The notes below the pieces were generated by a model that was not told the origin of the DNA, ran no database searches, and saw only the letters and a list, made by a program, of their open reading frames with translations. From the NCBI RefSeq assembly GCF_000165735.1, contig NZ_GL538209.1, positions 1 to 64,000 on the forward strand: 64,000 bases of DNA, read 5' to 3'. The DNA is from Megasphaera micronuciformis F0359. GTDB taxonomy: Bacteria > Bacillota > Negativicutes > Veillonellales > Megasphaeraceae. Positions within the stretch are counted from its first letter, which is position 1. Each line of letters opens with the position of its first letter. The translations under genes and the position numbers were made by a program. Of the stretch, positions 7,286-46,027 are shown one piece after another.

Positions 7286-8458
7286 TTATAAGGGCTTGGG
7301 CCTATGTTTTCGTACGAGTAAACTGATCAATAAAAGGACAGCACCGGCAACAATAAAGATTGAATGCATACCCGTTACGGTAGCAATGGCGGCTCCTGCC
7401 AACGGGCCCATGAAAGAACCGGTTTGCTGAGCGGAAAAGAGAAGACCGAAAACACGACCTTTCACATTGTTTGTGGTAGCATTTGCCAGAATCGCGTTGA
7501 TAGACGGGTTAATGCCGGAGAAGAAGAGGCCGACTCCAAATTGGCAGACAGCGAAAAGCGTGAGCGTTTTCGGCAGCGATTGAAGAACAGCTACGATACC
7601 GGCCAAGGTGAGTGCGTAGATTAAAGATGTATAAAAGCCGTGTTTTTGGCCGAACCGTCCCCATAAAGGGGCAGTAACAGCTCCCGCAATGCCGCTTAAT
7701 GAGAAAACGACGCCGGCTTTCATGGCAATGGAATCGGAGGTGCCTGTCAACTCTTCAATGTAAGGTGCCATAATCGGCTGGACGAGAAAGATGACCATTT
7801 GGACTAAGACGGCGAAAAGAAGCATGTCGCGAATGATAGGGGATTTAAGCACACTGAAGGAGGGCTGCTTTTCCTCCGGAGACGGGAGGGTGTGTGGCGG
7901 CTCTTTAATGACGACGAGTAGCATGATAAAGTTAAAAAATAAGGCGCCTGTAGCTATAAAAAAGGAGGTACGCATGCCGAAAATCTCGGAAAGTACGCCT
8001 CCGAACAGCGGGCCGATTACACTGCCGGCCGTCAAAGCGCCTTGCATAATGCCGAGGCAAAAGCCTGTTTTCTCGGTAGGGGCATAGGAGGTCATGATGG
8101 CTAAATTCATGGGCCACAGTCCGGATGCAAATCCTTGGAATAGGCGGACACACATGAGTTGAATCGGTGTCGTTACGATACCTCCGAGAAAATAACTGAT
8201 TGATAATAAAAAGCTGGCACGTAATGCCATGATCCGTTTGCCGCGATTGTCGGCCATACGTCCCCAGATAGGAGCCATAACAGAGCTGACAATGAAAGAA
8301 GCGGAAAAAATAATACCCGACCAAAGATGGATTTCGGCAGGGATTACCCCCAGTTCTTTCGTTAAATAGACGGGTAAAAAAGGGATAATCATCGTATAAC
8401 TTGAAGACATAAACAGTACGTTACAGGTTAAGACGGCAAGACATAATTTCCAATTCAT
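7286..8458 (-). CDS. Major facilitator superfamily exporter (multidrug efflux type)
   Basis: About 390 residues with twelve hydrophobic segments. The first inter-helix loop carries GRMADNRGKR, matching the MFS motif A (GxLaDrxGrk), and the second half repeats it as APLWGRFGQKHG. The N-terminus (MNWKLCLAVLTCNVLFMSSSY... PFLPVYLTKELG) resembles drug and sugar-efflux MFS proteins such as MdtG/YttB. The substrate is unknown. I start it at 8458: the more distal ATG at 8476 would leave a leader of only about 13 bases after the promoter at 8496-8524, with no ribosome site. No partner gene is adjacent. Confidence 0.9.
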   Translation of the reverse strand: MNWKLCLAVLTCNVLFMSSSYTMIIPFLPVYLTKELGVIPAEIHLWSGIIFSASFIVSSVMAPIWGRMADNRGKRIMALRASFLLSISYFLGGIVTTPIQLMCVRLFQGFASGLWPMNLAIMTSYAPTEKTGFCLGIMQGALTAGSVIGPLFGGVLSEIFGMRTSFFIATGALFFNFIMLLVVIKEPPHTLPSPEEKQPSFSVLKSPIIRDMLLFAVLVQMVIFLVQPIMAPYIEELTGTSDSIAMKAGVVFSLSGIAGAVTAPLWGRFGQKHGFYTSLIYALTLAGIVAVLQSLPKTLTLFAVCQFGVGLFFSGINPSINAILANATTNNVKGRVFGLLFSAQQTGSFMGPLAGAAIATVTGMHSIFIVAGAVLLLISLLVRKHRPKPL

Positions 8459-8495
8459 AAGCACACTCTTTTCCATGTGAATAAACTATTGTTTT

Positions 8496-8524
8496 ATTAT
8501 ACGAGGGCAGATGTGGTATGACAA
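8496..8524 (-). promoter_or_regulatory. Promoter of the MFS gene
   Basis: On the minus strand TTGTCA (8519-8524) and TATAAT (8496-8501) are separated by exactly 17 bases. This is one of the best consensus promoters in the window. Confidence 0.75.
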
Positions 8525-8609
8525 GGCGATTGCTATACTTTTACCGGGGAGGACGGTATAATGAAACTTATGTTATGCAGGATTATTTAAGCTTTTAACG
8601 AGGTGTATT

Positions 8610-9545
8610 ATGGTTCCTTATCTGTTGAAAAGACTCGGCGGGGCCCTGATCGTTTTATGGGCCGTTATTACACTTACCTTTTTTTTAATGCATGCCGTTC
8701 CCGGAGGCCCTTTTACAGCTGAAAAGAAATTACCACCCTCAGTTTTGACAGCTGTAGAAGCCAGGTATAAGTTAAATGATCCCTTGTGGAAACAGTATAC
8801 GGACTATTTGGGTCATGTCGTGCAGGGAGATTTCGGCCCGTCCTTTAAATATCCCGGACGTACGGTAAACAATATTATCGCCGAAACGGCTCCGGTCTCA
8901 GCGGTATTAGGCGGTATCAGTCTGATTGTATCTTTGATTGTCGGCATTGTATCGGGACTTGCGGCGGCATCTCGCAAAAATTCACTTCTTGATTATGTCT
9001 GTCTGATTTTTGCTACCTTGGGTGTCTCCGTGCCCGGATTTATCATTGCGGCCCTCCTTGTTGAAGTATTTGCTTTTTGGTGGCCCGTATTACCTGCAGC
9101 TCTGTGGAAGGGACCGACTTATGCCGTCTTACCGGCTCTGGCATTAGCAGCCGCTCCTACGGCGTTTATTATGAGGCTCACCAGAGCCGGCGTACTTGAT
9201 GCATTAGAGCAGGACTATATCCGTACGGCGCGGGCTGCCGGTGTCGGTAAATGGAGAATTTTATACCATCATGCACTTCGTAACGCACTCTTACCGGTAG
9301 TTAGTTATACGGGACCGCTGGCAGCCTCTCTCCTTACCGGCAGTTTTGTTGTCGAGACGCTTTTTGCCATACCCGGATTGGGTCGATATTTTGTGACCAG
9401 TATATATAACCGAGATTATACGGTTATTTTAGGAATCACCCTTTTTTACAGTATTTTTGTTATTTTCGTGAACCTTTTAGCAGATTTAATATATCCCTTG
9501 TTGGACCCGCGTATTTCTGTCACGAAGGGAGGAGAAAAGAAATGA
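8610..9545 (+). CDS. Peptide ABC transporter permease, DppB/OppB type
   Basis: A 311-residue inner-membrane protein starting MVPYLLKRLGGALIVLWAVITLTFFLMHAVPGGPF, the conserved N-terminus of Opp/Dpp permease 1 (R-R-L, then TFxLMxxxPGdPf). The EAA loop that contacts the ATPase is seen as YIRTARAAGVGKWRIL near residues 205-220. It is the first gene of an eight-gene run. It overlaps the second permease by 4 bases (ATGA). Together with the next four genes it forms a complete oligopeptide importer. Confidence 0.95.
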   Translation: MVPYLLKRLGGALIVLWAVITLTFFLMHAVPGGPFTAEKKLPPSVLTAVEARYKLNDPLWKQYTDYLGHVVQGDFGPSFKYPGRTVNNIIAETAPVSAVLGGISLIVSLIVGIVSGLAAASRKNSLLDYVCLIFATLGVSVPGFIIAALLVEVFAFWWPVLPAALWKGPTYAVLPALALAAAPTAFIMRLTRAGVLDALEQDYIRTARAAGVGKWRILYHHALRNALLPVVSYTGPLAASLLTGSFVVETLFAIPGLGRYFVTSIYNRDYTVILGITLFYSIFVIFVNLLADLIYPLLDPRISVTKGGEKK

Positions 9546-10459
9546 TACGACATGATGATTTCGAGCCTGTACCGTTTGCAACAAGAAAGGCGGTGCAAAG
9601 AAGTCGTAGGCCCGTAACTTATCGAGGCCTGCAGCGATTAAAGAAAAATCGTTTGGCCGTGGCGGGAGGCATTATTATCTGTCTAATTGCGCTTTGGGCC
9701 CTCATCGGGCCCGCCTTTTCGCCCTATACGTATGACGGGCAGAATTTTGCCGAAGCCAATGCGGCTCCATCGGTACGGCATTGGTTCGGTACCGATTCTT
9801 TGGGCCGAGATTTATATACGCGTGTGCTTTACGGGGCACGGATATCCTTATCCATCGGTATCGTAGCGGCACTTATTAATGTGACTATCGGTGTTATTTA
9901 CGGCGGTATTGCCGGCTTTGTCGGAGGTAAGACAGATCGGATTATGATGCATATCGTGGATGTTTTGTACTCTGTGCCTGTTTTATTATATGTTATTTTA
10001 TTGATGGTTGTTTTTAAGCCGGGACTACTTAATATTTACATTGCTTTGGGCATTGCCTATTGGTTGAACATGGCACGCATTGTGCGCGGTCAAATTTTGA
10101 GTTTGAAGACGTCTGATTACATTACGGCTGCACGCTCCTGTAATGCAGGCTCTTTTGATTTATTGCGACGACATTTATTGCCCAATGCGGCCGGTCCGAT
10201 TGTTGCCGCCTTGACGTTGTCAGTACCGGATGCAATTTTCACGGAAGCTTTTTTAAGCTTTATAGGCCTGGGGGTGTCGGCTCCCATGGCCAGCTGGGGT
10301 GTTTTGACGTCCGAGGGGATTAACAGCATCCGATCCTTTCCGTTCCAACTCTTTTTCCCCGCCGCGGCCTTGTGCTTAACTATGTTGGGATTTGTTTTTT
10401 TAGGTGACGGTCTATATGATTTGGCGGATCCGCAGACGGGAAAGGATGGGAATATATGA
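9542..10459 (+). CDS. Peptide ABC transporter permease, DppC/OppC type
   Basis: A 305-residue permease with the OppC pattern: a cytoplasmic N-terminus with RLKKNRLAVAGGIII before the first helix, a periplasmic segment with HWFGTDSLGRDLYTRVLYGARISL (the HxxGTDxxGRDxxSRxxYGxRxSL signature), and the EAA loop YITAARSCNAGSFDLLRRHLLPN. It pairs with the preceding permease and overlaps the ATPase gene by 4 bases (ATGA at 10456-10459), so expression is coupled. Confidence 0.95.
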   Translation: MIRHDDFEPVPFATRKAVQRSRRPVTYRGLQRLKKNRLAVAGGIIICLIALWALIGPAFSPYTYDGQNFAEANAAPSVRHWFGTDSLGRDLYTRVLYGARISLSIGIVAALINVTIGVIYGGIAGFVGGKTDRIMMHIVDVLYSVPVLLYVILLMVVFKPGLLNIYIALGIAYWLNMARIVRGQILSLKTSDYITAARSCNAGSFDLLRRHLLPNAAGPIVAALTLSVPDAIFTEAFLSFIGLGVSAPMASWGVLTSEGINSIRSFPFQLFFPAAALCLTMLGFVFLGDGLYDLADPQTGKDGNI

Positions 10460-11448: not shown

Positions 11449-12407
11449 TAGAGGCACGGCACGTGCGCAAGGACTTTGTGACGAAGCGGAATATTTTCGG
11501 CAAGCCGGTCCGTACCATTACGCCTGTTCTGGATGTCTCCCTGGGCATATTGAGAGGTATGACAGTCGGGCTCGTCGGCGAATCCGGTTGCGGTAAATCC
11601 ACTTTTCTTAAAACCGTACTCGGTCTTGCCGGAACCTGGGGCGGGGAGATTTATTATAAAGGCCGTAATGTCTTACAGCCTGAAACGGCACAGGAATTCA
11701 GACGAAATGTACAAATGATTTTCCAGGACCCTTATTCATCCTTGGATCCGCGCATGAATATAGAGGACATTATCAGTGAACCTCTATATAATTATAGAAT
11801 CGGCACAGCTTCACAGCGGCGGCAGAAGGCTGCCGAGCTTTTGGAACAAGTAGAACTTCCCAAAGAGGCGGCTCATCGCTACCCGTTCGAGTTTAGCGGG
11901 GGACAACGACAACGAATCGGAATCGCCAGAGCCCTGGCTCTGAATCCGGAGTGTATCTTTTGTGATGAACCCGTATCGGCTCTTGATGTATCCGTACAGG
12001 TTCAGATTATTAACATGCTGAAACGATTGCAAAAAGAACGAGACTTATCGTATCTTTTTATTTCTCATGATTTGTCGGTCGTCTATTATATGAGCGATTA
12101 TATAGGGATTATGTACGGCGGGTGTATCGTCGAATATGGATGTAGTGAAGATATTTACAGGCGGCCGCTACATCCGTATACAAAGTTGTTGCTTCAATCG
12201 ATACCGAAGGCGGAACCGTCCCGTAAGAAGTCGATTGTGTCGGTACTTACAGAAGAAAAGGCAGAAGAAGGGGCCTGTGCTTTTTATCCTCGCTGTTCTT
12301 TTTCGAATCGTCGTTGTCTGATAGAAGTCCCGGTTTTGAAAAAACATGAAAATAATCGAGTTATAGCTTGTCATTATGTAGAAGGAGGGGCTGTATGCGG
12401 CGGATAG
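11439..12407 (+). CDS. Peptide ABC transporter ATPase, DppF/OppF type
   Basis: A 322-residue ABC ATPase with Walker [10 protein letters not shown] (about 47-55), signature FSGGQRQRIGIARAL (about 151-165), Walker B CIFCDEPVSALDVS (about 172-185) and H-loop ISHDLS. The IFQDPYSSLDPRM segment and the cysteine-containing C-terminal extension (CAFYPRCSFSNRRC) are typical of OppF/DppF. It overlaps the binding-protein gene by 13 bases, continuing the tight operon. Confidence 0.95.
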   Translation: MYLIEARHVRKDFVTKRNIFGKPVRTITPVLDVSLGILRGMTVGLVGESGCGKSTFLKTVLGLAGTWGGEIYYKGRNVLQPETAQEFRRNVQMIFQDPYSSLDPRMNIEDIISEPLYNYRIGTASQRRQKAAELLEQVELPKEAAHRYPFEFSGGQRQRIGIARALALNPECIFCDEPVSALDVSVQVQIINMLKRLQKERDLSYLFISHDLSVVYYMSDYIGIMYGGCIVEYGCSEDIYRRPLHPYTKLLLQSIPKAEPSRKKSIVSVLTEEKAEEGACAFYPRCSFSNRRCLIEVPVLKKHENNRVIACHYVEGGAVCGG

Positions 12408-21316: not shown

Positions 21317-22165
21317 ATGAAAAATTATATAACGGAACATCAGTCCCCGTATTTGGATTTACGGGCCGAAGTGACGGATATTCTTTTTGAAGGCAAGTCT
21401 GATTTCCAGGATATTGTTGTAGCCGATAGTAAAGAGTACGGAAGAATGTTGATGTTGGACGGTGTTTTTCAAACGTCGGACAAAGATGAATTTACGTATC
21501 ATGAAAATATTACACACATCCCCCTTTTTCTGCATCCTTCTCCTAAAAATGTATTGATCATCGGCGGCGGGGACGGGGGGGCCGCAAGAGAAGCCGTACG
21601 TCATCCGGAAGTGGAACGGGTGACGATGGTAGATATTGACGGTAAGGTGATTGAACTGTCGAAAAAATATTTCCCCAAGATTTCGGCAGCTATTTTGGAA
21701 AACAATCCCAAGCTGACGGTTAAAGTAGGAGACGGAATTGCTTTTATGAAAGAAGCGGAAAATTTCTACGACGTTATTATTGTAGACTGCTCCGACCCGG
21801 TCGGTCCCGGAGAAGGCTTGTTTACGTACGATTTTTATAAGGACACGTATAAGGCTTTGAAGGATGACGGCATTTTCGTGCAGCAGACAGAGTCTCCGTT
21901 TATGCATCGTAAATTAGTACGTGAAGTATTTGATGCCGTAGGTGCCATTTTCCCGATTACGCGCCTATATACGGCTTTCATACCCCTCTACCCTACGGGT
22001 ATGCACTGCTTTACCATGGGTTCGAAAAAATATGACCCTTTAACATGGGAATCCAATCGGAAGCAGACTTTTGAAACGAAATACTATAATGAAGGCATTC
22101 AAAAAAGTGCCTTTGTATTACCGAACTTCGTAAAAGAGTTGCTTTACGGCGAAAAACATGAGTGA
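21317..22165 (+). CDS. speE: Spermidine synthase (polyamine aminopropyltransferase)
   Basis: A 282-residue protein with the normal SpeE length. Landmarks: the N-terminal beta domain with SDFQDIVVADSKEYGRMLMLDGVFQTSDKDEFTYHE, then the Rossmann motif VLIIGGGDGGAAREAVRH (about 75-92), the acidic VDIDGKVIELSKKYFP, and the catalytic-loop VDCSDPVGPGEGLF (about 154-167). It transfers an aminopropyl group from decarboxylated S-adenosylmethionine to putrescine. The ribosome site GGAGG is at 21306-21310. It stands alone, with no speD neighbour, upstream of a terminator. A second, membrane-bound homologue lies about 2.4 kb downstream. Confidence 0.95.
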   Translation: MKNYITEHQSPYLDLRAEVTDILFEGKSDFQDIVVADSKEYGRMLMLDGVFQTSDKDEFTYHENITHIPLFLHPSPKNVLIIGGGDGGAAREAVRHPEVERVTMVDIDGKVIELSKKYFPKISAAILENNPKLTVKVGDGIAFMKEAENFYDVIIVDCSDPVGPGEGLFTYDFYKDTYKALKDDGIFVQQTESPFMHRKLVREVFDAVGAIFPITRLYTAFIPLYPTGMHCFTMGSKKYDPLTWESNRKQTFETKYYNEGIQKSAFVLPNFVKELLYGEKHE

Positions 22166-22476: not shown

Positions 22477-22553
22477 GGCGGGTATGGTGAAGTGGTTAAC
22501 ACGGCGGATTGTGGCTCCGTTATTCAAGGGTTCGATCCCCTTTACTCGCCCCA
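22477..22553 (+). tRNA. tRNA-His (anticodon GTG)
   Basis: The acceptor GCGGGTA (22478-22484) pairs with TACTCGC, with the extra 5' G(-1) at 22477 opposite C73, the identity element of tRNA-His. Anticodon loop TTGTGGC carries GTG at 22511-22513. The T arm has GTTCGAT. CCA is encoded (22551-22553). Confidence 0.95.
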
Positions 22554-22554
22554 T

Positions 22555-22629
22555 AGGGGTATAGCCAAGTGGTAAGGCACCGGACTTTGACTCCGCTATG
22601 CGCTGGTTCGAATCCAGCTACCCCTGCCA
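22555..22629 (+). tRNA. tRNA-Gln (anticodon TTG)
   Basis: Acceptor AGGGGTA (22555-22561) pairs with TACCCCT (22619-22625), G73, and an encoded CCA ends at 22629. Anticodon loop CTTTGAC gives TTG. One base separates it from tRNA-His. Confidence 0.95.
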
Positions 22630-22634
22630 AGTAT

Positions 22635-22710
22635 GATCCACTAGCTCAGTCGGTAGAGCACCTGACTTTTAATCAGGGTGTCCCGAGTTCGAATCTCGGG
22701 TGGATCACCA
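22635..22710 (+). tRNA. tRNA-Lys (anticodon TTT)
   Basis: Acceptor GATCCAC (22635-22641) pairs with GTGGATC. The anticodon stem CCTGA/TCAGG closes loop CTTTTAA with TTT. A73 and an encoded CCA end at 22710. Confidence 0.95.
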
Positions 22711-22916: not shown

Positions 22917-24101
22917 ATGAACTTTAAATACGGCGATACACTGCGTATCGAAAACGATTTATATACGGTTTTAGGGACAATTGCATATGAAAATAAGGAG
23001 GGCTACTCATGGGTTGAGCATCTCCTCATAGAACATCGTACCGATACGGAATATTGGCTCAGGAAGGATGACGGCAGTCGTGGGTACGAAAATCGCGAGT
23101 ATCAGTTGTCGCGAGTTGTTTCAACAGGCATAATTCCCGCCGGCATGCGTCTTGTTGACAGTGGTAGGGAGCGTGTTACCGACGTTTGGGATATATACGG
23201 GTCCGATGATGTAGAACGCGGCGACGAAGCCGATTATAAAAACTACCGGAATAATAAAGGGATGTTCTTTTCTATAGAAAAGTGGGAAGATTGCACGGAA
23301 TATTCGCGCGGCCGGTATATAGATGAAAAGGTTGTGCGAATTGAGGAAAATGCGGAGTTAACCGACTTTATTAAACGCCAAATGCTCCGTAGACGCCTTA
23401 TTAAGACCGGTGTATTCTTGTTTTTCGTCGTAGGGATTTGTATTCTTTTGTATATGGGTTATTCTATGCGACACGATATACGGGACTTCTTCGGATATCC
23501 TTATACGGTAGCCGAATATGTAAAGGATAAGCCGGGGACTTATACATATGTCACTTCCGTCACGGATGCCAATAATACTAAGTCCGATATTTATCAGTCC
23601 GACAAAGATTTGGATGCGACTGTACAGGATATCATTAAGGGCGTAGACGGTAAGGTTTCGGAAGTTACTCAAGACGGCGATACGGCACTGGAAAATATGG
23701 ATAGCCAAGCTGATGAGGAATTGACGGATTTGGTGCGAACGACCGGTGTTCCCACACAGACTGTAACGATTTTGACGGATAACGAGTTTATTACCGTATA
23801 TATATCGACGGAAGGGACGGTATTGCTTCGCGTTGAAAGTCGGGAAGCGGCTTACAACAACACGGATGACGGCGGCTATCACAGTACCACCCATTCATAC
23901 GGTTTTTATCGCTATGCTTACTGGCGTAATGGATATGACCGAGATCGCGGGCGTTACGGAGGAACGTCTTCATACGCCGCTTACACACCGGGATCATCGC
24001 ATACCACTTATTCGCCGTACAATCAATATGCATCCAGCGTGCGTCGAAACAGCGTGAGCAGTCGGACCGGATCCCATGGCGGTACGAGTGTGGGAAAATA
24101 A
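22917..24101 (+). CDS. DUF4178-type membrane protein with Tyr/Ser-rich tail
   Basis: This 394-residue protein begins with a DUF4178-like beta domain (residues 1-75: YGDTLRIENDLYTVLGTIAYENKEG, then WVEHLLIEHRTDTEYWL), in which the W-x-E-Y/H-L-L and WL motifs are typical. A related second segment follows to about residue 150. One transmembrane helix lies at about 165-185 (FLFFVVGICILLYMGY), then an extracytoplasmic domain with VTVTILTDNEFITVYISTEG-like strands, and a low-complexity tail rich in Tyr, Ser, Gly and Arg (about 315-394). Function is unknown. DUF4178 genes often neighbour DUF350 and spermidine-synthase-like genes, as here, 38 bases upstream of DUF350. Confidence 0.8.
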   Translation: MNFKYGDTLRIENDLYTVLGTIAYENKEGYSWVEHLLIEHRTDTEYWLRKDDGSRGYENREYQLSRVVSTGIIPAGMRLVDSGRERVTDVWDIYGSDDVERGDEADYKNYRNNKGMFFSIEKWEDCTEYSRGRYIDEKVVRIEENAELTDFIKRQMLRRRLIKTGVFLFFVVGICILLYMGYSMRHDIRDFFGYPYTVAEYVKDKPGTYTYVTSVTDANNTKSDIYQSDKDLDATVQDIIKGVDGKVSEVTQDGDTALENMDSQADEELTDLVRTTGVPTQTVTILTDNEFITVYISTEGTVLLRVESREAAYNNTDDGGYHSTTHSYGFYRYAYWRNGYDRDRGRYGGTSSYAAYTPGSSHTTYSPYNQYASSVRRNSVSSRTGSHGGTSVGK

Positions 24102-24139
24102 AAAGTTAGGAAATATTTCTATGTATACGGGAGGAACTT

Positions 24140-24571
24140 ATGCCTTATATTGCGGATATTGTGAATGTATTGATATTCTCCTTCTTGGGAATTATTTTGA
24201 TGATTGTCGGGAATATGATTATCGATCAGTTTATTCCCGGTGATTTTCCGACGGAAATAAAAAAAGGGAATAGTGCTGTTGCCTGGGTCTGTGCCGGTTC
24301 GTTTATCGGCATGGGAGAGATTGTTCGGACAGCCATTCAATCACCGACAGCGGCAGAAGTAGAAGAATTTCTTTTACACGGCATTATGTTCAGTCTTATT
24401 TATGCCGTCATAGGAATAGCCGTTTTCCTTATGGGCTTTTTCTTTATCAGTGCCTTTCAGCGTAAGTATTCCTTGTCTAAAGAAATTATGAGCGGTAATG
24501 TAGCGGCAGGTATTGTTACCTTCGGTATTTTTGTAGGCTTGGCACTTGTCGTAGCCGGGGCCATTCAGTGA
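24140..24571 (+). CDS. DUF350 integral membrane protein
   Basis: A 143-residue protein with about four transmembrane helices arranged as two related halves. The central GNSAVAWVCAGSFIGMGEIV and the later SGNVAAGIVTFGIFVGLALVV match the GN-x-A-x-A...G-x-(I/L)-G pattern of DUF350 (YjfL family). The biochemical role of the family is not established. It ends as CAG-TGATG with the next start codon overlapping by one base, so it is tightly coupled to the spermidine-synthase-like gene. Confidence 0.88.
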   Translation: MPYIADIVNVLIFSFLGIILMIVGNMIIDQFIPGDFPTEIKKGNSAVAWVCAGSFIGMGEIVRTAIQSPTAAEVEEFLLHGIMFSLIYAVIGIAVFLMGFFFISAFQRKYSLSKEIMSGNVAAGIVTFGIFVGLALVVAGAIQ

Positions 24572-26073
24572 TGAAGTCGGAACGCCTGTTGCTGCTTACA
24601 GCTTTTATCGTATCAGGGTGTTCTCTGTGCTATGAATTGATCATAGGCGCTATCAGTTCATACATATCCGGTGATACGGTGTGGCAGTATTCCGTTACCA
24701 TCGGTCTTTATATGGCGGCCCTGGGGTTCGGATCTTATATCAGTAAATATATTCGCCGTAATTTATATGACTGGTTTATCGGTATTGAGGTGATTATCGG
24801 TATTATAGGAGGACTTAGTGCGACCTTTATTTTTTTGGCTAATTTGTACTTGGAAGCCTATCAGGTCGTGATGTATGCCTTTATTATCGGAATCGGCATA
24901 CTTGTAGGTATGGAAATTCCCTTGTTGGCACGAATTTTGGAAGTGGAGCGGGGAGACTTACGACATACCCTGTCATCTGTATTTGCCTTTGACTATATGG
25001 GCGGATTGGCCGGTTCCGTCGTCTTTCCTCTTTTATTTTTGCCGCATTTAGGGTATTTGGCGACGGCTTTTTTGTGTGGGGTTTTGAATGTGGCTGCGGC
25101 GGGAATCGTCATTGGAGCCCATTATCGAAAATTGAGATTGCGTCGGATTTGGCGGGCTGTTGTCATCATGCTGACGATCGGGTTGTTTACAGGCGTGGCT
25201 TTTGCAGGGAATATTTCCAAATATGTTGAAGGCGGCTTGTATCGCGATACCATTATTTTTTCCACGCAGACGGAGTACCAAAAAATTGTCGTTACTCGTC
25301 ATAAAGATGATGTGCGGCTGTTTATTGATGGAAATTTACAGTTTTCCTCGAGCGATGAATACCGATATCATGAAGCGTTGATTCATGTGCCTATGGCACA
25401 GGTACAAAATCCGCAACGTGTTTTGATACTCGGAGGCGGAGACGGCTTGGCAGCTCGCGAGCTTTTAAAGTATGAAGGCGTAGAGATTACGTTGGTAGAC
25501 TTGGATAAGGCTATAACCGACTTGGCTTCTACCAACCCCGTCTTGACGAAGCTTAATGAACACTCTTTAACGGATCCGCGGGTTACGATTATTAATGATG
25601 ATGCCCTTAAGTTTTTGGAACAGACGAATCATATATACGATGTCATTGTCATAGACTTACCGGACCCCAATAATGCGACTCTTGTCAAGTTGTACAGCAA
25701 CATCTTTTATCGCCTTTGCTACAAGGCCCTGGGGGAAAACGGTGTTATGGTGGTGCAATCGACGAGTCCCTATTATGCGACTAAGACGTTTTGGAGTATT
25801 CATAAAACTCTTGAATCGGAAGGTTTTTATGTCTACCCTTATCATTTACAAGTACCGTCTTTCGGTGATTGGGGATTCAATTTGGCTAGCAAACACTCTT
25901 TGGCAATTATTCATCCCGTTCGAGCCGTAAATACACGCTTCTTAACGGATGACGTTATGAATAAAATGTTTGTTTTCGGAAAAGATGAAATAGCCGGTGA
26001 TGTAGAAATAAACGCTGTTACGCGGCCTGTTATACTGGATTATTATATGGATGCCGTTCATAAGTGGCGATAG
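24571..26073 (+). CDS. Membrane-bound spermidine-synthase-like protein (polyamine aminopropyltransferase fold)
   Basis: A 500-residue protein in two parts. Residues 1-215 hold about seven transmembrane helices (starting LLLLTAFIVSGCSLCYELIIGAISSYI). Residues about 225-500 are a SpeE-like domain: TQTEYQKIVVTRHKDDVRLFIDGNLQFSSSDEYRYHEAL, Rossmann VLILGGGDGLAARELLKY (about 290-307), LVDLDKAITDLA, and VIDLPDPNNATLVKLYS in place of the soluble enzyme's catalytic D-x-x-D(P) loop. The YRYHE and GGGDG motifs are retained. It may make a polyamine at the membrane or modify another amine. GTG at 24568 is an alternative start one codon upstream. Confidence 0.88.
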   Translation: MKSERLLLLTAFIVSGCSLCYELIIGAISSYISGDTVWQYSVTIGLYMAALGFGSYISKYIRRNLYDWFIGIEVIIGIIGGLSATFIFLANLYLEAYQVVMYAFIIGIGILVGMEIPLLARILEVERGDLRHTLSSVFAFDYMGGLAGSVVFPLLFLPHLGYLATAFLCGVLNVAAAGIVIGAHYRKLRLRRIWRAVVIMLTIGLFTGVAFAGNISKYVEGGLYRDTIIFSTQTEYQKIVVTRHKDDVRLFIDGNLQFSSSDEYRYHEALIHVPMAQVQNPQRVLILGGGDGLAARELLKYEGVEITLVDLDKAITDLASTNPVLTKLNEHSLTDPRVTIINDDALKFLEQTNHIYDVIVIDLPDPNNATLVKLYSNIFYRLCYKALGENGVMVVQSTSPYYATKTFWSIHKTLESEGFYVYPYHLQVPSFGDWGFNLASKHSLAIIHPVRAVNTRFLTDDVMNKMFVFGKDEIAGDVEINAVTRPVILDYYMDAVHKWR

Positions 26074-26078
26074 AAAAT

Positions 26079-26109
26079 AAAAGCGAGGAATTGAGATTCC
26101 TCGCTTTTT
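26079..26109. terminator. Bidirectional terminator between the polyamine module and the antiporter gene
   Basis: AAAAGCGAGGAAT (26079-26091) pairs perfectly with ATTCCTCGCTTTT (26096-26108), loop TGAG, between convergent genes. Confidence 0.92.
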
Positions 26110-41078: not shown

Positions 41079-41203
41079 ATGCTGTAGACGTATAAAAAGG
41101 TCTTAGCGTATGTATAAAGCGGTGGGGTTCTTTCGTCGCCCTGCGTAAGGATATATAATCAAGATATATAGTTCTGTTGATAAATAATTATAGGAGAACG
41201 GGT

Positions 41204-44200
41204 ATGAATGCATACACTCTTTCAAATTTGACGGATATGGTTAAAGAAGGCTTGCATACAAGACGATTTTTAAAACAAATCAATCTTACGGCAGAAGCCT
41301 TGGACCGTATTATTACACGAACTTCTGTAGATGAGGCCGTTGCGGAAGTCGCATTCATGACAAATGAAGACGGTCGTTTTAGAACCGAGGCCGTACCGGG
41401 TGTTTTAAAGCGGCATATACCGGTGCTGGTAAACGAGCCGTCATGCGGTTGGTTAAAATATTGTTATTACTATATACTGGCCCGTATTTATCCGGAAAAT
41501 GTGGCTTATTGGACAGACGATCACATTGAAACGGTGCTGTCTCGAGATGATGAGTACGGATTGGGACGTGCCGTTGTGTTGCAGATTTTGCGTAGCCTAT
41601 ATAGATTTGAACGCCGATATCTTCCGTTTTCTCCTTTACGGGAAATGAGATTTTTGTCGCCGGAAGAGATTATAGAAAACGGCTTTAGTGAAGAATATCT
41701 GAAACTTCGCGACATCAGTACGGAGTATTATATTTATGAATTTATGCGTATCGGCTATGCCATTACCCCTTACGATACACTGGGACATATAGGAGGGGTG
41801 CATTATGTGGCTGTATACGCGGCACGGCAACTTTTTGCCGCCGGGGTGCCCGTTGATGTAGCCATTGTATCCGGAGCGGCAGCTGTACATGACATAGGAA
41901 AGTACGGGTCCAAGAAGAGCGAAGAACGCAGAGTTCCGTACCTGCACTATTTTTATACGGATCTTTGTTGTCGCCGTGTAGGTATCCCCGAAATCGGTCA
42001 TATTGCGGCAAACCACTCTGTTTGGGATTTGGAACTGGAAAACTTGCCGGTTGAGGCGTTGTTATTAATTTATGCTGATTTTCGCGTTAAAAGTCGGCGA
42101 GAAAACGGTCGTGAAAAAGTTTGTTTCTATACATTAAAAGAAGCTTTTGATGTTATTTTGCAAAAGCTGGATAATGTAGACGAGGCTAAAAAGCATCGCT
42201 ATCAAAGAGTGTACGAGAAGTTGGCCGACTTTGAACAATATATGACTATGTCCGGTGTCAATACGGTTTTACCTGATGATTTTTCCGATTGGCCGGCCAG
42301 TCCGGGAAAACGTGAGAATGAGGAGCCTGTGTTGCAGGAAGGGGAATCGGTCGTTCGCGCTTTGACCTATACGGCTATTGATCACAATATCCGTATGATG
42401 CGTCTTTTCCAAAAAGGGAATGAGTTTTCACGTTTTTTGGAAGGGGCTCGCAGTGAGCGCAGTTGGAAGAATGTACGTAATTACATAAGTACGCTTGAAG
42501 AGTATTTTACATATATGACGGAGCGCCAGAAAACGATTACACTGCAATTTCTTTATGAAATTTTGTCGTATCAGGATGTAGACATTCGTATGCAGGCTGC
42601 CAGATTGATGGGAAATATTGTCGCGACTTTTGAAGAAAAGTATCGAAAGGAAATTCCCGAAGGCGTTACTTTACCCCCCAGAGAGGTAACCAGTGCCGGC
42701 CTTTTCGCACATTACATGTCGCTAATCGTAAAGCCCGGCTGGCGTTTTACGCAGCAACATCGGAACTGGATTTCCTACTGCCTGGGAGAATTTGTGCAAA
42801 GTGCCTTACAATATTGTGATGAAGATGAGCGCCGGGAATATTTGGATATTTTACAACGATACTATAGCCGCACGAACTATCAAAGTGAGATTTTCATTGT
42901 CTTGCTTACTGCCTTGAATCGCGCTGATATTATACAGGGTGCAACGGGATTTATTGAAACCTTGGGGACTTTTATCGAAGCGGCTTTGAGTCATGCCGAT
43001 TTAAATGTACGCGTTGCGGCTTTGCGTTGCAAAGCCACTCTGGTAGATGCGTATGATGAGGAGATGTACTTTGCCGACTTGTTGAAGACCTTGAGACTTT
43101 CGGCTAATGAGGCGGACTTAAATGAAGAATCGGGGGCTCTTTTTCTGGACAATTTGAAGATGAGCACTCACTGGGTCATTAAGGCCGCTAATATAGAGAT
43201 TCTTTTACACTTTTTACAAATGACACATCAGCCGAGCAGCGTTATGCACTTGGGCACGCATTTAGCCAATGTTTTGAAAGTCAGCGAAAGTTGTTTCGTT
43301 AGAGCCGCCGCCGGTGCGGCTTTGTTGCGAGTTGCCTCCCATATGACGTTTACACAACGCAATGAAATTGCCGTGGAACTGTTTAACGGTCTCGAATTGG
43401 GAGATTTGCGCATATCAAAGTATGTTCCCGAATATTTAGGCCGGCTTGTATTACAACTGTCGCCGAGCGAAGTGGATGAATTTATCGGTAATATTGAAAA
43501 TCAAATTGTAACGGCCACGACTCATGTAGCCGCCTCAATGGTTCATACGGTGGGTGTCATGGTCGGCAATTTTCAGGAATTTGCCGAACGCTTTCCCCAG
43601 GAAGAAATTCGAAACGAGAGTCGGAAACGGCGATTACTGTATATCATGATTAAGACATATGCGCACTTTAACAGGGAACTGAGTCGCGATGCCTTTAGAC
43701 AAATGGGGCGGTTTATCTTTGCCAACCCTGTCTTGTCTTTGGATGAAGTGGATTTTTTCTTTTCTCATGCGTATAAGAAATTGCTCGTCTTATTGTCTGA
43801 GCAACGAGAAGAGGCTCTCGATTTTTATAACAATGCGGCAGTGCTTAATCACATTTATCGCTATATCGGGATTCATCGATTGGAACGGGAACGTTTTGAT
43901 TTTGCCCCACCTCGCAAGGTGTGCTTTTATCCGGGAACCTTCGATCCTTTCAGCCTGGGCCATAAAGCGATTGCCATTCAGATTCGAGATTTGGGCTTTG
44001 ACGTGTATTTGGCACTTGATGAATTTTCTTGGTCGAAGCATACACAGCCGCGCTTGATGCGAAGGAAGATTATGAATATGTCCGTTGCCGATAAAGAGCA
44101 TATTTACCCCTTCCCCGACGATATTTCTATCAATATGGCTAACCCGTCCGACCTGAAGAGGTTGAAAGAAATTTTTGCGGGTCGCGAACTGTACTTGGCT

Positions 44201-46027
44201 GTCGGTACGGACGTTATAGAAAATGCGTCGGCATACAGAAATGAGCCGTCGGAACACTCAGTTCACACATTGAATCATATTGCTTTTGAGCGGGAGACAA
44301 GAGACGGAAAATACGATCCCGAATCGTTTTGTCATCCCGTACAGGGAGACTTAATCACCTTAAAGCTGGATAAGTTTTATGAGGATATCAGCTCTACGCG
44401 TATTCGTGAGAACATCGACTTAAATCGGGATATATCGAATCTTATCGATGCGGTGGCACAGCAGTTTATTTATGAAAATAATTTATATTTACGTGAACCG
44501 GCATACAAGCACGTTTTTGATGCAAAGAACATGGATATAAGCCTCTTTGAAACGCATCAAAAGAGTGAAGAGATGCCGTCTGCAGGAGAATTGAATGCCG
44601 CAGGCTACGACGGTATGTGTGTTTCATCCTATGTTTGCCGTGATGATGTTCGTTCTTTGTATATAGAGTGGACCGAAAAGGAACGACAAGTCATCGCTTA
44701 TGCGGCGGCTCATCATGTGGGTATTCGTGAATTGCACACCGAATTCGGTGATACGGATATTGCGTCTCGCATCCGTGAGGCTGCGGAAGGATCCGTTGCG
44801 TCCATCGGCTTCCTTTATACCCGGATGGCGGTTGCAGCGGGAGATATTCGGGAAATTCTTATTACGGAGCTGATGACCGCTCTTATTGCCCAAGATTATG
44901 CATATGCCTTGTATCACCCTGTTGATGCGGTCGGCGGCTACGGGGATGAAGCGATGATTGAGGCCTTGCAAGACAGAGGATTTCAGAATATTGCCCCGCC
45001 CGGAGCCGATCCGGTATATGCCGTCAGCCTGAAGAGTCCCGTGGTTCTTTTTAGAGATGTGGAAACTGTTTTGAAAAATCCGTTTAACAAGAACCTTACG
45101 GTATTACAGGCTTTGGATAAGGCTCATGAACGGTTGCTGGAAACCATGCGACGCATTTATCCGGGAAAGCTTATTCTTTCCTTTACCCCGAGCGTTGTAC
45201 ACAAAAAGATTATTAATGAGGCCGTGCGCTTGAACGGGGTTTCCGCAGTAAATGACGGTAAACGACGTTACGGTCCGTACATGTCCGTACCCTTCGGTAA
45301 GACCTTAAGTGATGTCTTAATACCCAATACGGTAACGAAGGCTTTACACATAGAAAAGTATTTTGAACGGTCTGTGCGAGGTTTTAAAATGGCGGAATCA
45401 CGGTACTATTCGTCTGTAATAAATCAGGTAAAGACTATCCGCTCCTTTAATCGGCCGGTGATGTTGATTGACGATTTATTACATAAGGGTTATCGCATGC
45501 GTATGCTCGTTCCTTATTTAGAGGAATGCGGAATCGATATTAAGGCCGTCTTAACAGGTGTAATGACAGGTCGGGCGGCCGATATGATGAGTGAATGGGG
45601 AATACGGGCTGAGTGTGCTTACTTTCTGCCTACTCTGGAGGTATGGCTGAATGAACGCGACTGTTATCCTTTCTTAGGGGGCGACAGTATTATGCAGGCT
45701 GACGGAAGCGGCGATGACAATCCGTTCATCAATCTTGTCTTGCCTTATGTAAAACCCGGATTTATCGGTAAGGGGGATGACGAGGCCGTATACCGGTATT
45801 CGCTCACTTGCCTGAAAAATGCACTGCACATTATGGAAACTTTGCAGGAGACATATCAGCAGACATTTGAAAGACGCCTAACTTTGAAACGTCTGGGTGA
45901 GGTGGTTTCACCCTTGCGCATTCCCGATATGAACCCCGGAGTAATCTTTGATAAGAGTATGAATCCGTCACGGTTTATAGAAAATGATATTGAACAATTA
46001 CTAAGATTTCGATGGAAAAATTCGTAG
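41204..46027 (+). CDS. Giant multidomain protein: HD domain, HEAT-like repeats, NMNAT-like, GNAT-like and PRTase-like domains
   Basis: A 1607-residue protein, ATG behind GGAG at 41193-41196. From the N-terminus: an HD phosphohydrolase-like domain (about 190-300; GHIGGVHYVAV with His200, AAVHDIGKYG with His229-Asp230, ANHSVWD with His271, YADFR); helical HEAT-like repeats (about 400-880); a nucleotidyltransferase domain of the NadD/cytidylyltransferase superfamily with FYPGTFDPFSLGHKA (about 908-922, the TxGH-like loop) and EDISSTRIREN (about 1060-1070, the ISSTxIR loop); a GNAT-like segment (about 1140-1265); and a phosphoribosyltransferase-like domain with VMLIDDLLHKGYRMRMLV (about 1419-1436). 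This looks like nucleotide or cofactor chemistry in a single chain. It is the first gene of three in one run. Function unknown. Confidence 0.85.
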   Translation: MNAYTLSNLTDMVKEGLHTRRFLKQINLTAEALDRIITRTSVDEAVAEVAFMTNEDGRFRTEAVPGVLKRHIPVLVNEPSCGWLKYCYYYILARIYPENVAYWTDDHIETVLSRDDEYGLGRAVVLQILRSLYRFERRYLPFSPLREMRFLSPEEIIENGFSEEYLKLRDISTEYYIYEFMRIGYAITPYDTLGHIGGVHYVAVYAARQLFAAGVPVDVAIVSGAAAVHDIGKYGSKKSEERRVPYLHYFYTDLCCRRVGIPEIGHIAANHSVWDLELENLPVEALLLIYADFRVKSRRENGREKVCFYTLKEAFDVILQKLDNVDEAKKHRYQRVYEKLADFEQYMTMSGVNTVLPDDFSDWPASPGKRENEEPVLQEGESVVRALTYTAIDHNIRMMRLFQKGNEFSRFLEGARSERSWKNVRNYISTLEEYFTYMTERQKTITLQFLYEILSYQDVDIRMQAARLMGNIVATFEEKYRKEIPEGVTLPPREVTSAGLFAHYMSLIVKPGWRFTQQHRNWISYCLGEFVQSALQYCDEDERREYLDILQRYYSRTNYQSEIFIVLLTALNRADIIQGATGFIETLGTFIEAALSHADLNVRVAALRCKATLVDAYDEEMYFADLLKTLRLSANEADLNEESGALFLDNLKMSTHWVIKAANIEILLHFLQMTHQPSSVMHLGTHLANVLKVSESCFVRAAAGAALLRVASHMTFTQRNEIAVELFNGLELGDLRISKYVPEYLGRLVLQLSPSEVDEFIGNIENQIVTATTHVAASMVHTVGVMVGNFQEFAERFPQEEIRNESRKRRLLYIMIKTYAHFNRELSRDAFRQMGRFIFANPVLSLDEVDFFFSHAYKKLLVLLSEQREEALDFYNNAAVLNHIYRYIGIHRLERERFDFAPPRKVCFYPGTFDPFSLGHKAIAIQIRDLGFDVYLALDEFSWSKHTQPRLMRRKIMNMSVADKEHIYPFPDDISINMANPSDLKRLKEIFAGRELYLAVGTDVIENASAYRNEPSEHSVHTLNHIAFERETRDGKYDPESFCHPVQGDLITLKLDKFYEDISSTRIRENIDLNRDISNLIDAVAQQFIYENNLYLREPAYKHVFDAKNMDISLFETHQKSEEMPSAGELNAAGYDGMCVSSYVCRDDVRSLYIEWTEKERQVIAYAAAHHVGIRELHTEFGDTDIASRIREAAEGSVASIGFLYTRMAVAAGDIREILITELMTALIAQDYAYALYHPVDAVGGYGDEAMIEALQDRGFQNIAPPGADPVYAVSLKSPVVLFRDVETVLKNPFNKNLTVLQALDKAHERLLETMRRIYPGKLILSFTPSVVHKKIINEAVRLNGVSAVNDGKRRYGPYMSVPFGKTLSDVLIPNTVTKALHIEKYFERSVRGFKMAESRYYSSVINQVKTIRSFNRPVMLIDDLLHKGYRMRMLVPYLEECGIDIKAVLTGVMTGRAADMMSEWGIRAECAYFLPTLEVWLNERDCYPFLGGDSIMQADGSGDDNPFINLVLPYVKPGFIGKGDDEAVYRYSLTCLKNALHIMETLQETYQQTFERRLTLKRLGEVVSPLRIPDMNPGVIFDKSMNPSRFIENDIEQLLRFRWKNS

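Follow-up and report, generated by a model that had tools for sequence, protein, structure and literature searches.

In the 64,000-nt stretch of Megasphaera micronuciformis F0359 DNA analysed here (contig NZ_GL538209.1, positions 1 to 64,000; hereafter the window), a three-gene module encodes a DUF4178 protein with a transmembrane (TM) helix, a DUF350 membrane protein and a spermidine-synthase-like enzyme fused to a seven-transmembrane domain (7TM-SpeE), and the tail of the DUF4178 protein is a conserved C-terminal motif, GGxSxGK. A tail of this kind was found next to 7TM-SpeE across many bacterial phyla, and the sequence comparisons indicate that the tail-enzyme pairing is very probably real. 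We tentatively favour the reading that an extracytoplasmic 7TM-SpeE may aminopropylate the C-terminal lysine of its partner. The tail and its pairing with 7TM-SpeE are new here, whereas the enzyme family and a related PspA operon were already known. A first-pass annotation, made from the letters alone, had proposed three tightly spaced genes of these kinds, and the open reading frames (ORFs) and the Pfam and NCBIfam matches bore this out. The module comprises the following features.

22917-24101, + strand: DUF4178-TM helix-external domain-C-terminal GK tail protein, 394 amino acids (aa) (PF13785, 34 bits against a cut-off of 25)
22929-23324, + strand: DUF4178 domain, residues 5-136 of the 394-aa protein (Pfam match)
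24027-24098, + strand: conserved C-terminal tail, residues 371-394, ending GGTSVGK (alignment); the final lysine is the proposed acceptor
24140-24571, + strand: DUF350 membrane protein, 143 aa (PF03994, 91.1 bits against a cut-off of 26)
24571-26073, + strand: 7TM-SpeE, membrane domain plus aminopropyltransferase domain (NF002956, 609.7 bits against an NCBIfam cut-off of 472; Spermine_synth, 136.6 bits against 22.9)
25441-25443, + strand: Asp292 of GGGDG, numbered from GTG, a contact for the aminopropyl part of decarboxylated S-adenosylmethionine (dcAdoMet) (91/91 homologues; role from PMC10146546)
25654-25665, + strand: catalytic pair Asp363-Leu-Pro-Asp366 (both Asp in 91/91 homologues; roles from PMC12812037 and PMC10146546)

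The pairing was counted at 93 other loci, drawn from 12 other Bacillota genomes, a second Negativicutes genome (G165) and 80 loci of a genome collection (the best 80 of 406 confirmed). A -GK tail was carried by an ORF on the same strand and within 7 kb of 7TM-SpeE at 85 of these loci, or at 84 under a stricter filter; the -GK end was itself used to pick the tail proteins here, so their last two residues are invariant by construction. The background frequency of GK ends was 11 among 971 other called ORFs. Two tests involved no tail-based choice. Among 398 Bacillota genomes, 7TM-SpeE occurred in 13 (14 hits less a weak one in G281, E = 6.5e-4, in an 854-aa frame), and the tail was present in 13/13, compared with a Gly-rich -GK tail in 0/10 genomes that have DUF4178 but lack 7TM-SpeE (one-sided p = 9e-7). 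DUF4178, present in 22 of the genomes, accompanied 7TM-SpeE in 12/13 (p = 3e-16). The second test covered 12 plasmid records with a near full-length 7TM-SpeE, and a neighbour with a terminal-lysine tail was found in nine of them, from five of six genera: the tail ended in GK in four records (Ensifer, Gemmatirosa and two Alteromonas), in VK in two Tritonibacter and in HK in three Novosphingobium. Thus, the lysine is more constant than the glycine.

The tail was also considered as a partner of DUF350 or DUF4178. This was rejected, because loci with those genes but without 7TM-SpeE lack the tail, and L094, L102 and L141 show the converse, a tail protein with 7TM-SpeE where neither DUF350 nor DUF4178 was found. 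Within the ten DUF4178-only Bacillota genomes, two have a PspA ending in GK, two have unrelated ORFs ending in GK and four have a lipoprotein ending in arginines (DUF4247 shown for one). Arginine-ended lipoproteins of DUF4178/DUF350/PspA operons without 7TM-SpeE were located at L174 (5961-6710, DUF4247), L176 (5789-6550), L181 (5655-6389) and L182 (5971-6717).

The proteins that bear the tail differ widely. Among the 7TM-SpeE neighbours in the 12 other Bacillota genomes and G165, a small exported protein ends in RGGGxxxGK or similar; like the window, G165 and G633 have this tail fused to the end of the DUF4178 protein. An alignment of 37 fused proteins had a mean column identity of 28%, with Tyr371, Ser379, Arg383 and Gly389 invariant; Gly393 and Lys394 were invariant as well, but these rows had been preselected as ending in -GK. 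Of 84 tail proteins, 41 carry DUF4178 (a domain-only count, which replaced an earlier label of 56 loci contaminated by tail similarity), 35 adjoin a separate DUF4178 gene and eight lie at loci where no DUF4178 was found. All three separate tail proteins that were scanned matched DUF4247, and the remainder are lipoproteins without a DUF4247 match or anchored peptides of ~60 aa. By sequence, then, the same tail is carried by DUF4178-TM fusions, by DUF4247 and other lipoproteins and by short anchored peptides, scaffolds that are unrelated to one another. The first-pass annotation had described a Tyr/Ser-rich tail on the DUF4178 protein; a tail does exist, but its main feature, the conserved C-terminal GGxSxGK, went unnoticed. 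The AlphaFold2 model of this 394-aa protein had a predicted local distance difference test score (pLDDT) of 83.5, falling below 50 over residues 384-394, and its fold had no solved match at E ≤ 0.001 among the chains Foldseek returned, to which all Foldseek rankings and absences given here apply. Long DUF4178 proteins with an acidic end (EDDDD or similar) were seen at the 7TM-SpeE loci L084, L086, L096, L103, L110, L144 and L148.

The enzyme, which is 501 aa long from a GTG (24568) or 500 aa from an ATG (24571) that overlaps the DUF350 stop as TGATG, matched the polyamine aminopropyltransferase model NF002956 over its full length and fell below the cut-off of the spermidine synthase SpeE model TIGR00417 (155.1 vs 249.55 bits). 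Its AlphaFold2 model (mean pLDDT 93.2, predicted template modelling score 0.84) placed the SpeE domain nearest to the Thermus triamine/agmatine aminopropyltransferase 1uir (Z 35.2, root-mean-square deviation 2.7 over 275 residues). Asp292, 311, 313, 345, 363 and 366 were invariant in an alignment of 91 homologues. According to the passages on aminopropyltransferase residues in PMC12812037 and PMC10146546, the position of Asp292 binds the aminopropyl part of dcAdoMet, that of Asp363 deprotonates the acceptor amine and that of Asp366 places it. The retention of GGGDG had been read correctly at the first pass, and so had the fusion to seven membrane helices, for which seven hydrophobic spans were seen; the accompanying view that the acidic loop is modified held only in part, since the changes lie around, not at, the catalytic residues and DLPDP retains both Asp. 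The real departures from SpeE are in the gate-keeping loop and on the acceptor side, where Phe432, Phe in 91/91 homologues, aligns with human Tyr241, described as a putrescine contact in spermidine synthase (PMC12812037). The IPxYPxG of soluble enzymes is replaced by a VPSFGDWGF-like stretch, and the Lys374 column holds K in 88 homologues and R in three. By sequence, the catalytic loop and SpeE fold are intact, and the alignment marks the donor side as that of a predicted dcAdoMet user and the acceptor side as different from putrescine enzymes. The earlier suggestion that the substrate differs from that of SpeE fits the sub-cut-off score, the Tyr241-to-Phe change and the presence of a separate SpeE.

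A methyltransferase activity was considered by analogy with the fungal N-terminal histidine methyltransferase NHMT, which likewise joins 7TM to a SpeE-like domain and acts on an exported protein. It was not preferred: NHMT uses a methyl donor, modifies an N-terminal His and is described as having no acid in GxG(D/E)G (PMC10349129), unlike 7TM-SpeE with its invariant dcAdoMet-binding Asp292. For the donor, speD is present at 35 of the 93 loci, so that local supply is frequent, not universal. A second speD dedicated to the module was rejected, two AdoMet decarboxylase genes being present in 13 of 15 genus genomes irrespective of the module's presence. Two such genes are carried by contigs C17 and C33 of G000 (L001 and L002).

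Lysine plus arginine averaged 12.3 on the side of the membrane domain that holds loops 2-3, 4-5 and 6-7 as well as the N-terminus, compared with 0.5 on the opposite side, and the same bias was seen in 91/91 homologues. This places the N-terminus inside and the enzyme domain outside, provided that the spans number seven, and we consider it likely on this sequence evidence that the SpeE domain lies outside the cytoplasmic membrane, the side on which tails with a lipobox must also lie. For the 12 of 84 tail proteins that bear a lipobox-like motif, export is secure.

From the intact catalytic residues and fold, the conserved tail and its pairing with the enzyme across unrelated scaffolds, we infer an operon that would encode an enzyme together with its protein substrate at the membrane. 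Enzyme domain and tail would meet on the outer face, where 7TM-SpeE would move the aminopropyl group from dcAdoMet onto the side-chain amine of the lysine that ends its exported neighbour, in the window the DUF4178-TM protein; that the site is outside, that lysine accepts the group and that dcAdoMet donates it are all inferred. DUF350 and DUF4178 would be accessory or signalling parts, and a route outward for dcAdoMet might be provided by DUF350 or by the 7TM part. Lysine has a butylamine as its side chain, which in chemical terms is close to the end of putrescine. Lysine side chains with polyamine-derived units occur in silaffins and hypusine, which are eukaryotic or archaeal and involve internal lysines and other enzymes. 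In a broader form, for which we would claim only that it is a possibility worth entertaining, C-terminal lysine aminopropylation, perhaps in several rounds that build a polyamine on the protein, could be a widespread bacterial protein modification made by 7TM aminopropyltransferases on the outer face of the membrane, with the tail acquired by unrelated exported scaffolds.

Several points weigh against lysine aminopropylation outside the cell. The synthesis of dcAdoMet is cytoplasmic, so an outer enzyme would require its export, and dcAdoMet is not known to cross the membrane. The AlphaFold2 model gives residues 131-184 of 7TM-SpeE as one helix, and a single span there would make the enzyme domain cytoplasmic, but the most positive loop would then lie outside, and the ~44 hydrophobic residues of this stretch are excessive for a single pass. 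Charge flanking the anchor favours an N-in orientation for just 54 of 84 tail proteins. At four of the eight loci that missed the tail (L075, L082, L098 and L108) the upstream sequence amounts to just 18-403 bp before contig ends; at L083, L099 (Thiotrichales), L113 and L140 (Pirellulaceae) the available sequence holds no tail, and three Burkholderia plasmid records (L183, L197 and L198) have 7TM-SpeE without a tail gene nearby. These tail-less copies possibly use another acceptor. More distant haloarchaeal "spermidine synthases" (H13-H17, 27-29% identity), excluded from the counts as a distant group, had no tail in the two, out of five, that were examined. PspA ends in GK at three loci, L061 (6169-6834), L175 (7553-8221) and L180 (6218-6886); these LGK ends are not Gly-rich and perhaps coincidental. 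Finally, the DUF4247 protein Rv2599 of M. tuberculosis apparently lacks a Gly-rich tail end, to judge from a primer printed in PMC3726780, the Actinobacteria lying outside the sampled genomes.

The wider distribution bears on the origin of the module. NF002956 scored above its cut-off in 2 of 250 Negativicutes genomes, those of the window and G165, so that the conservation expected at the first pass holds across many phyla but not within the class. The distance from tRNA-Lys to nhaD was ~120 bp in 3/3 informative same-genus genomes vs 3.4 kb here; six were compared, and three were uninformative, both flanks being needed. The window and G165 proteins were sisters (100/100) in a tree built from 56 selected homologues, where they nested within a supported clade made up of Lachnospiraceae, Ruminococcus and related taxa. 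To go by these sequences, gut Clostridia were most likely the source of the module. The elements flanking it are listed below; the soluble speE, correctly reported as complete by the first-pass annotation, lies 2.4 kb from the 7TM-SpeE gene with tRNA-His, -Gln and -Lys in between.

21317-22165, + strand: separate soluble speE, outside the module (TIGR00417, 323.3 bits)
22478-22710, + strand: tRNA-His, -Gln, -Lys cluster, bordering the inserted module on its 5' side (context)
26082-26109, + strand: terminator-like inverted repeat and T run, 3' of the operon (seen in sequence)

Another explanation, which we think rather unlikely though it deserves attention, is that 7TM-SpeE produces free polyamine, with agmatine, cadaverine or spermidine as examples of a starting compound, and that the tail protein does no more than bind, sense or scaffold the enzyme, its terminal lysine serving as an anchor or recognition handle and not as an acceptor. 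The family name and the fold agree with this, a triamine/agmatine enzyme is the closest solved structure by fold, and tail-less copies of 7TM-SpeE occur; by itself, however, it leaves unaccounted for a C-terminal lysine that appears on unrelated scaffolds and beside this enzyme only. The tail could also be a pseudo-substrate whose terminal lysine, with a side chain like the end of putrescine, fills the acceptor pocket and keeps the enzyme off until stress withdraws it, giving membrane polyamine on demand. Linkage to PspA (20/93 loci) and to a K+ channel (23/93) suggests such stress control, but the two-gene loci L094, L102 and L141 show no control genes of this kind in the sequence examined, and we judge this explanation clearly improbable.

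That 7TM-SpeE is simply a redundant, membrane-anchored spermidine synthase would be compatible with its intact catalytic residues, yet it scores under the SpeE cut-off, has lost the acceptor-side Tyr and is paired with a conserved tail, which makes redundancy highly improbable. The first-pass annotation had linked the module to polyamines attached to peptidoglycan in Negativicutes. What speaks for this is the biochemistry of the class as stated there, nothing in its favour having been found in this analysis, in which no peptidoglycan gene was tested; since the idea rests on the class, a gain from gut Clostridia weakens it, and with most of the class lacking the module, a recent insertion between tRNA-Lys and nhaD and homologues among Lachnospiraceae and Ruminococcus, the link is unsupported and in our estimation barely credible.

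Operons of a 7TM-fused spermidine synthase, DUF350, DUF4178, a lipoprotein, PspA and CesT/Tir were described by Ravi et al. in 2024 (PMC11237479), who suggest polyamine sensing or the aminopropylation of other substrates; among the open-licence PMC papers searched, theirs is the one that names DUF4178. The window resembles these in its adjacent 7TM-SpeE, DUF350 and DUF4178 genes and differs in that its tail is fused to DUF4178 and its genome has no PspA (no PF04012 match genome-wide). The tail motif is not mentioned in the passages of Ravi et al. on which we draw; the main text of PMC11237479 does not contain "lysine", and "C-terminal tail" occurs there only within a reference title. A tail of this kind is a concrete candidate for the other substrates that those authors left open. 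Nothing on protein aminopropylation or aminopropyllysine was found in the open-licence PMC literature. The family NF002956/PRK03612, which the window enzyme matches at full length, has a name that implies free polyamines, whereas its pairing with the tail suggests that the acceptor is a protein. The label spermidine synthase is borne by many 7TM polyamine aminopropyltransferases; if the protein tail is modified, such annotations and the polyamine-synthesis inferences drawn from them would need revising, and an exported post-translational modification tied to envelope-stress genes would become directly testable.

A parallel arrangement was seen in two Negativicutes genomes (G004 and G037), where DUF4178-TM and DUF350 genes accompany a GspS-like ATP-grasp enzyme. 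GK is absent from the ends of their DUF4178 proteins, and a different tail is found on a small protein encoded separately. At the Negativicutes loci L057 and L058, the operon likewise sets DUF4178-TM, DUF350 and a small tail protein with a membrane anchor beside a modifying enzyme, but a ligase replaces the aminopropyltransferase and the tail, GFGSxGAR, has no terminal lysine. The relevant coordinates are 7463-9330 at L057 (PF03738 shown) and 8018-9948 and 11575-12135 at L058. Elsewhere in the window, positions 41177-46027 encode a 1616-aa protein that, judged by eye, combines repeats with an HD-like region and a part resembling a nucleotidyltransferase.

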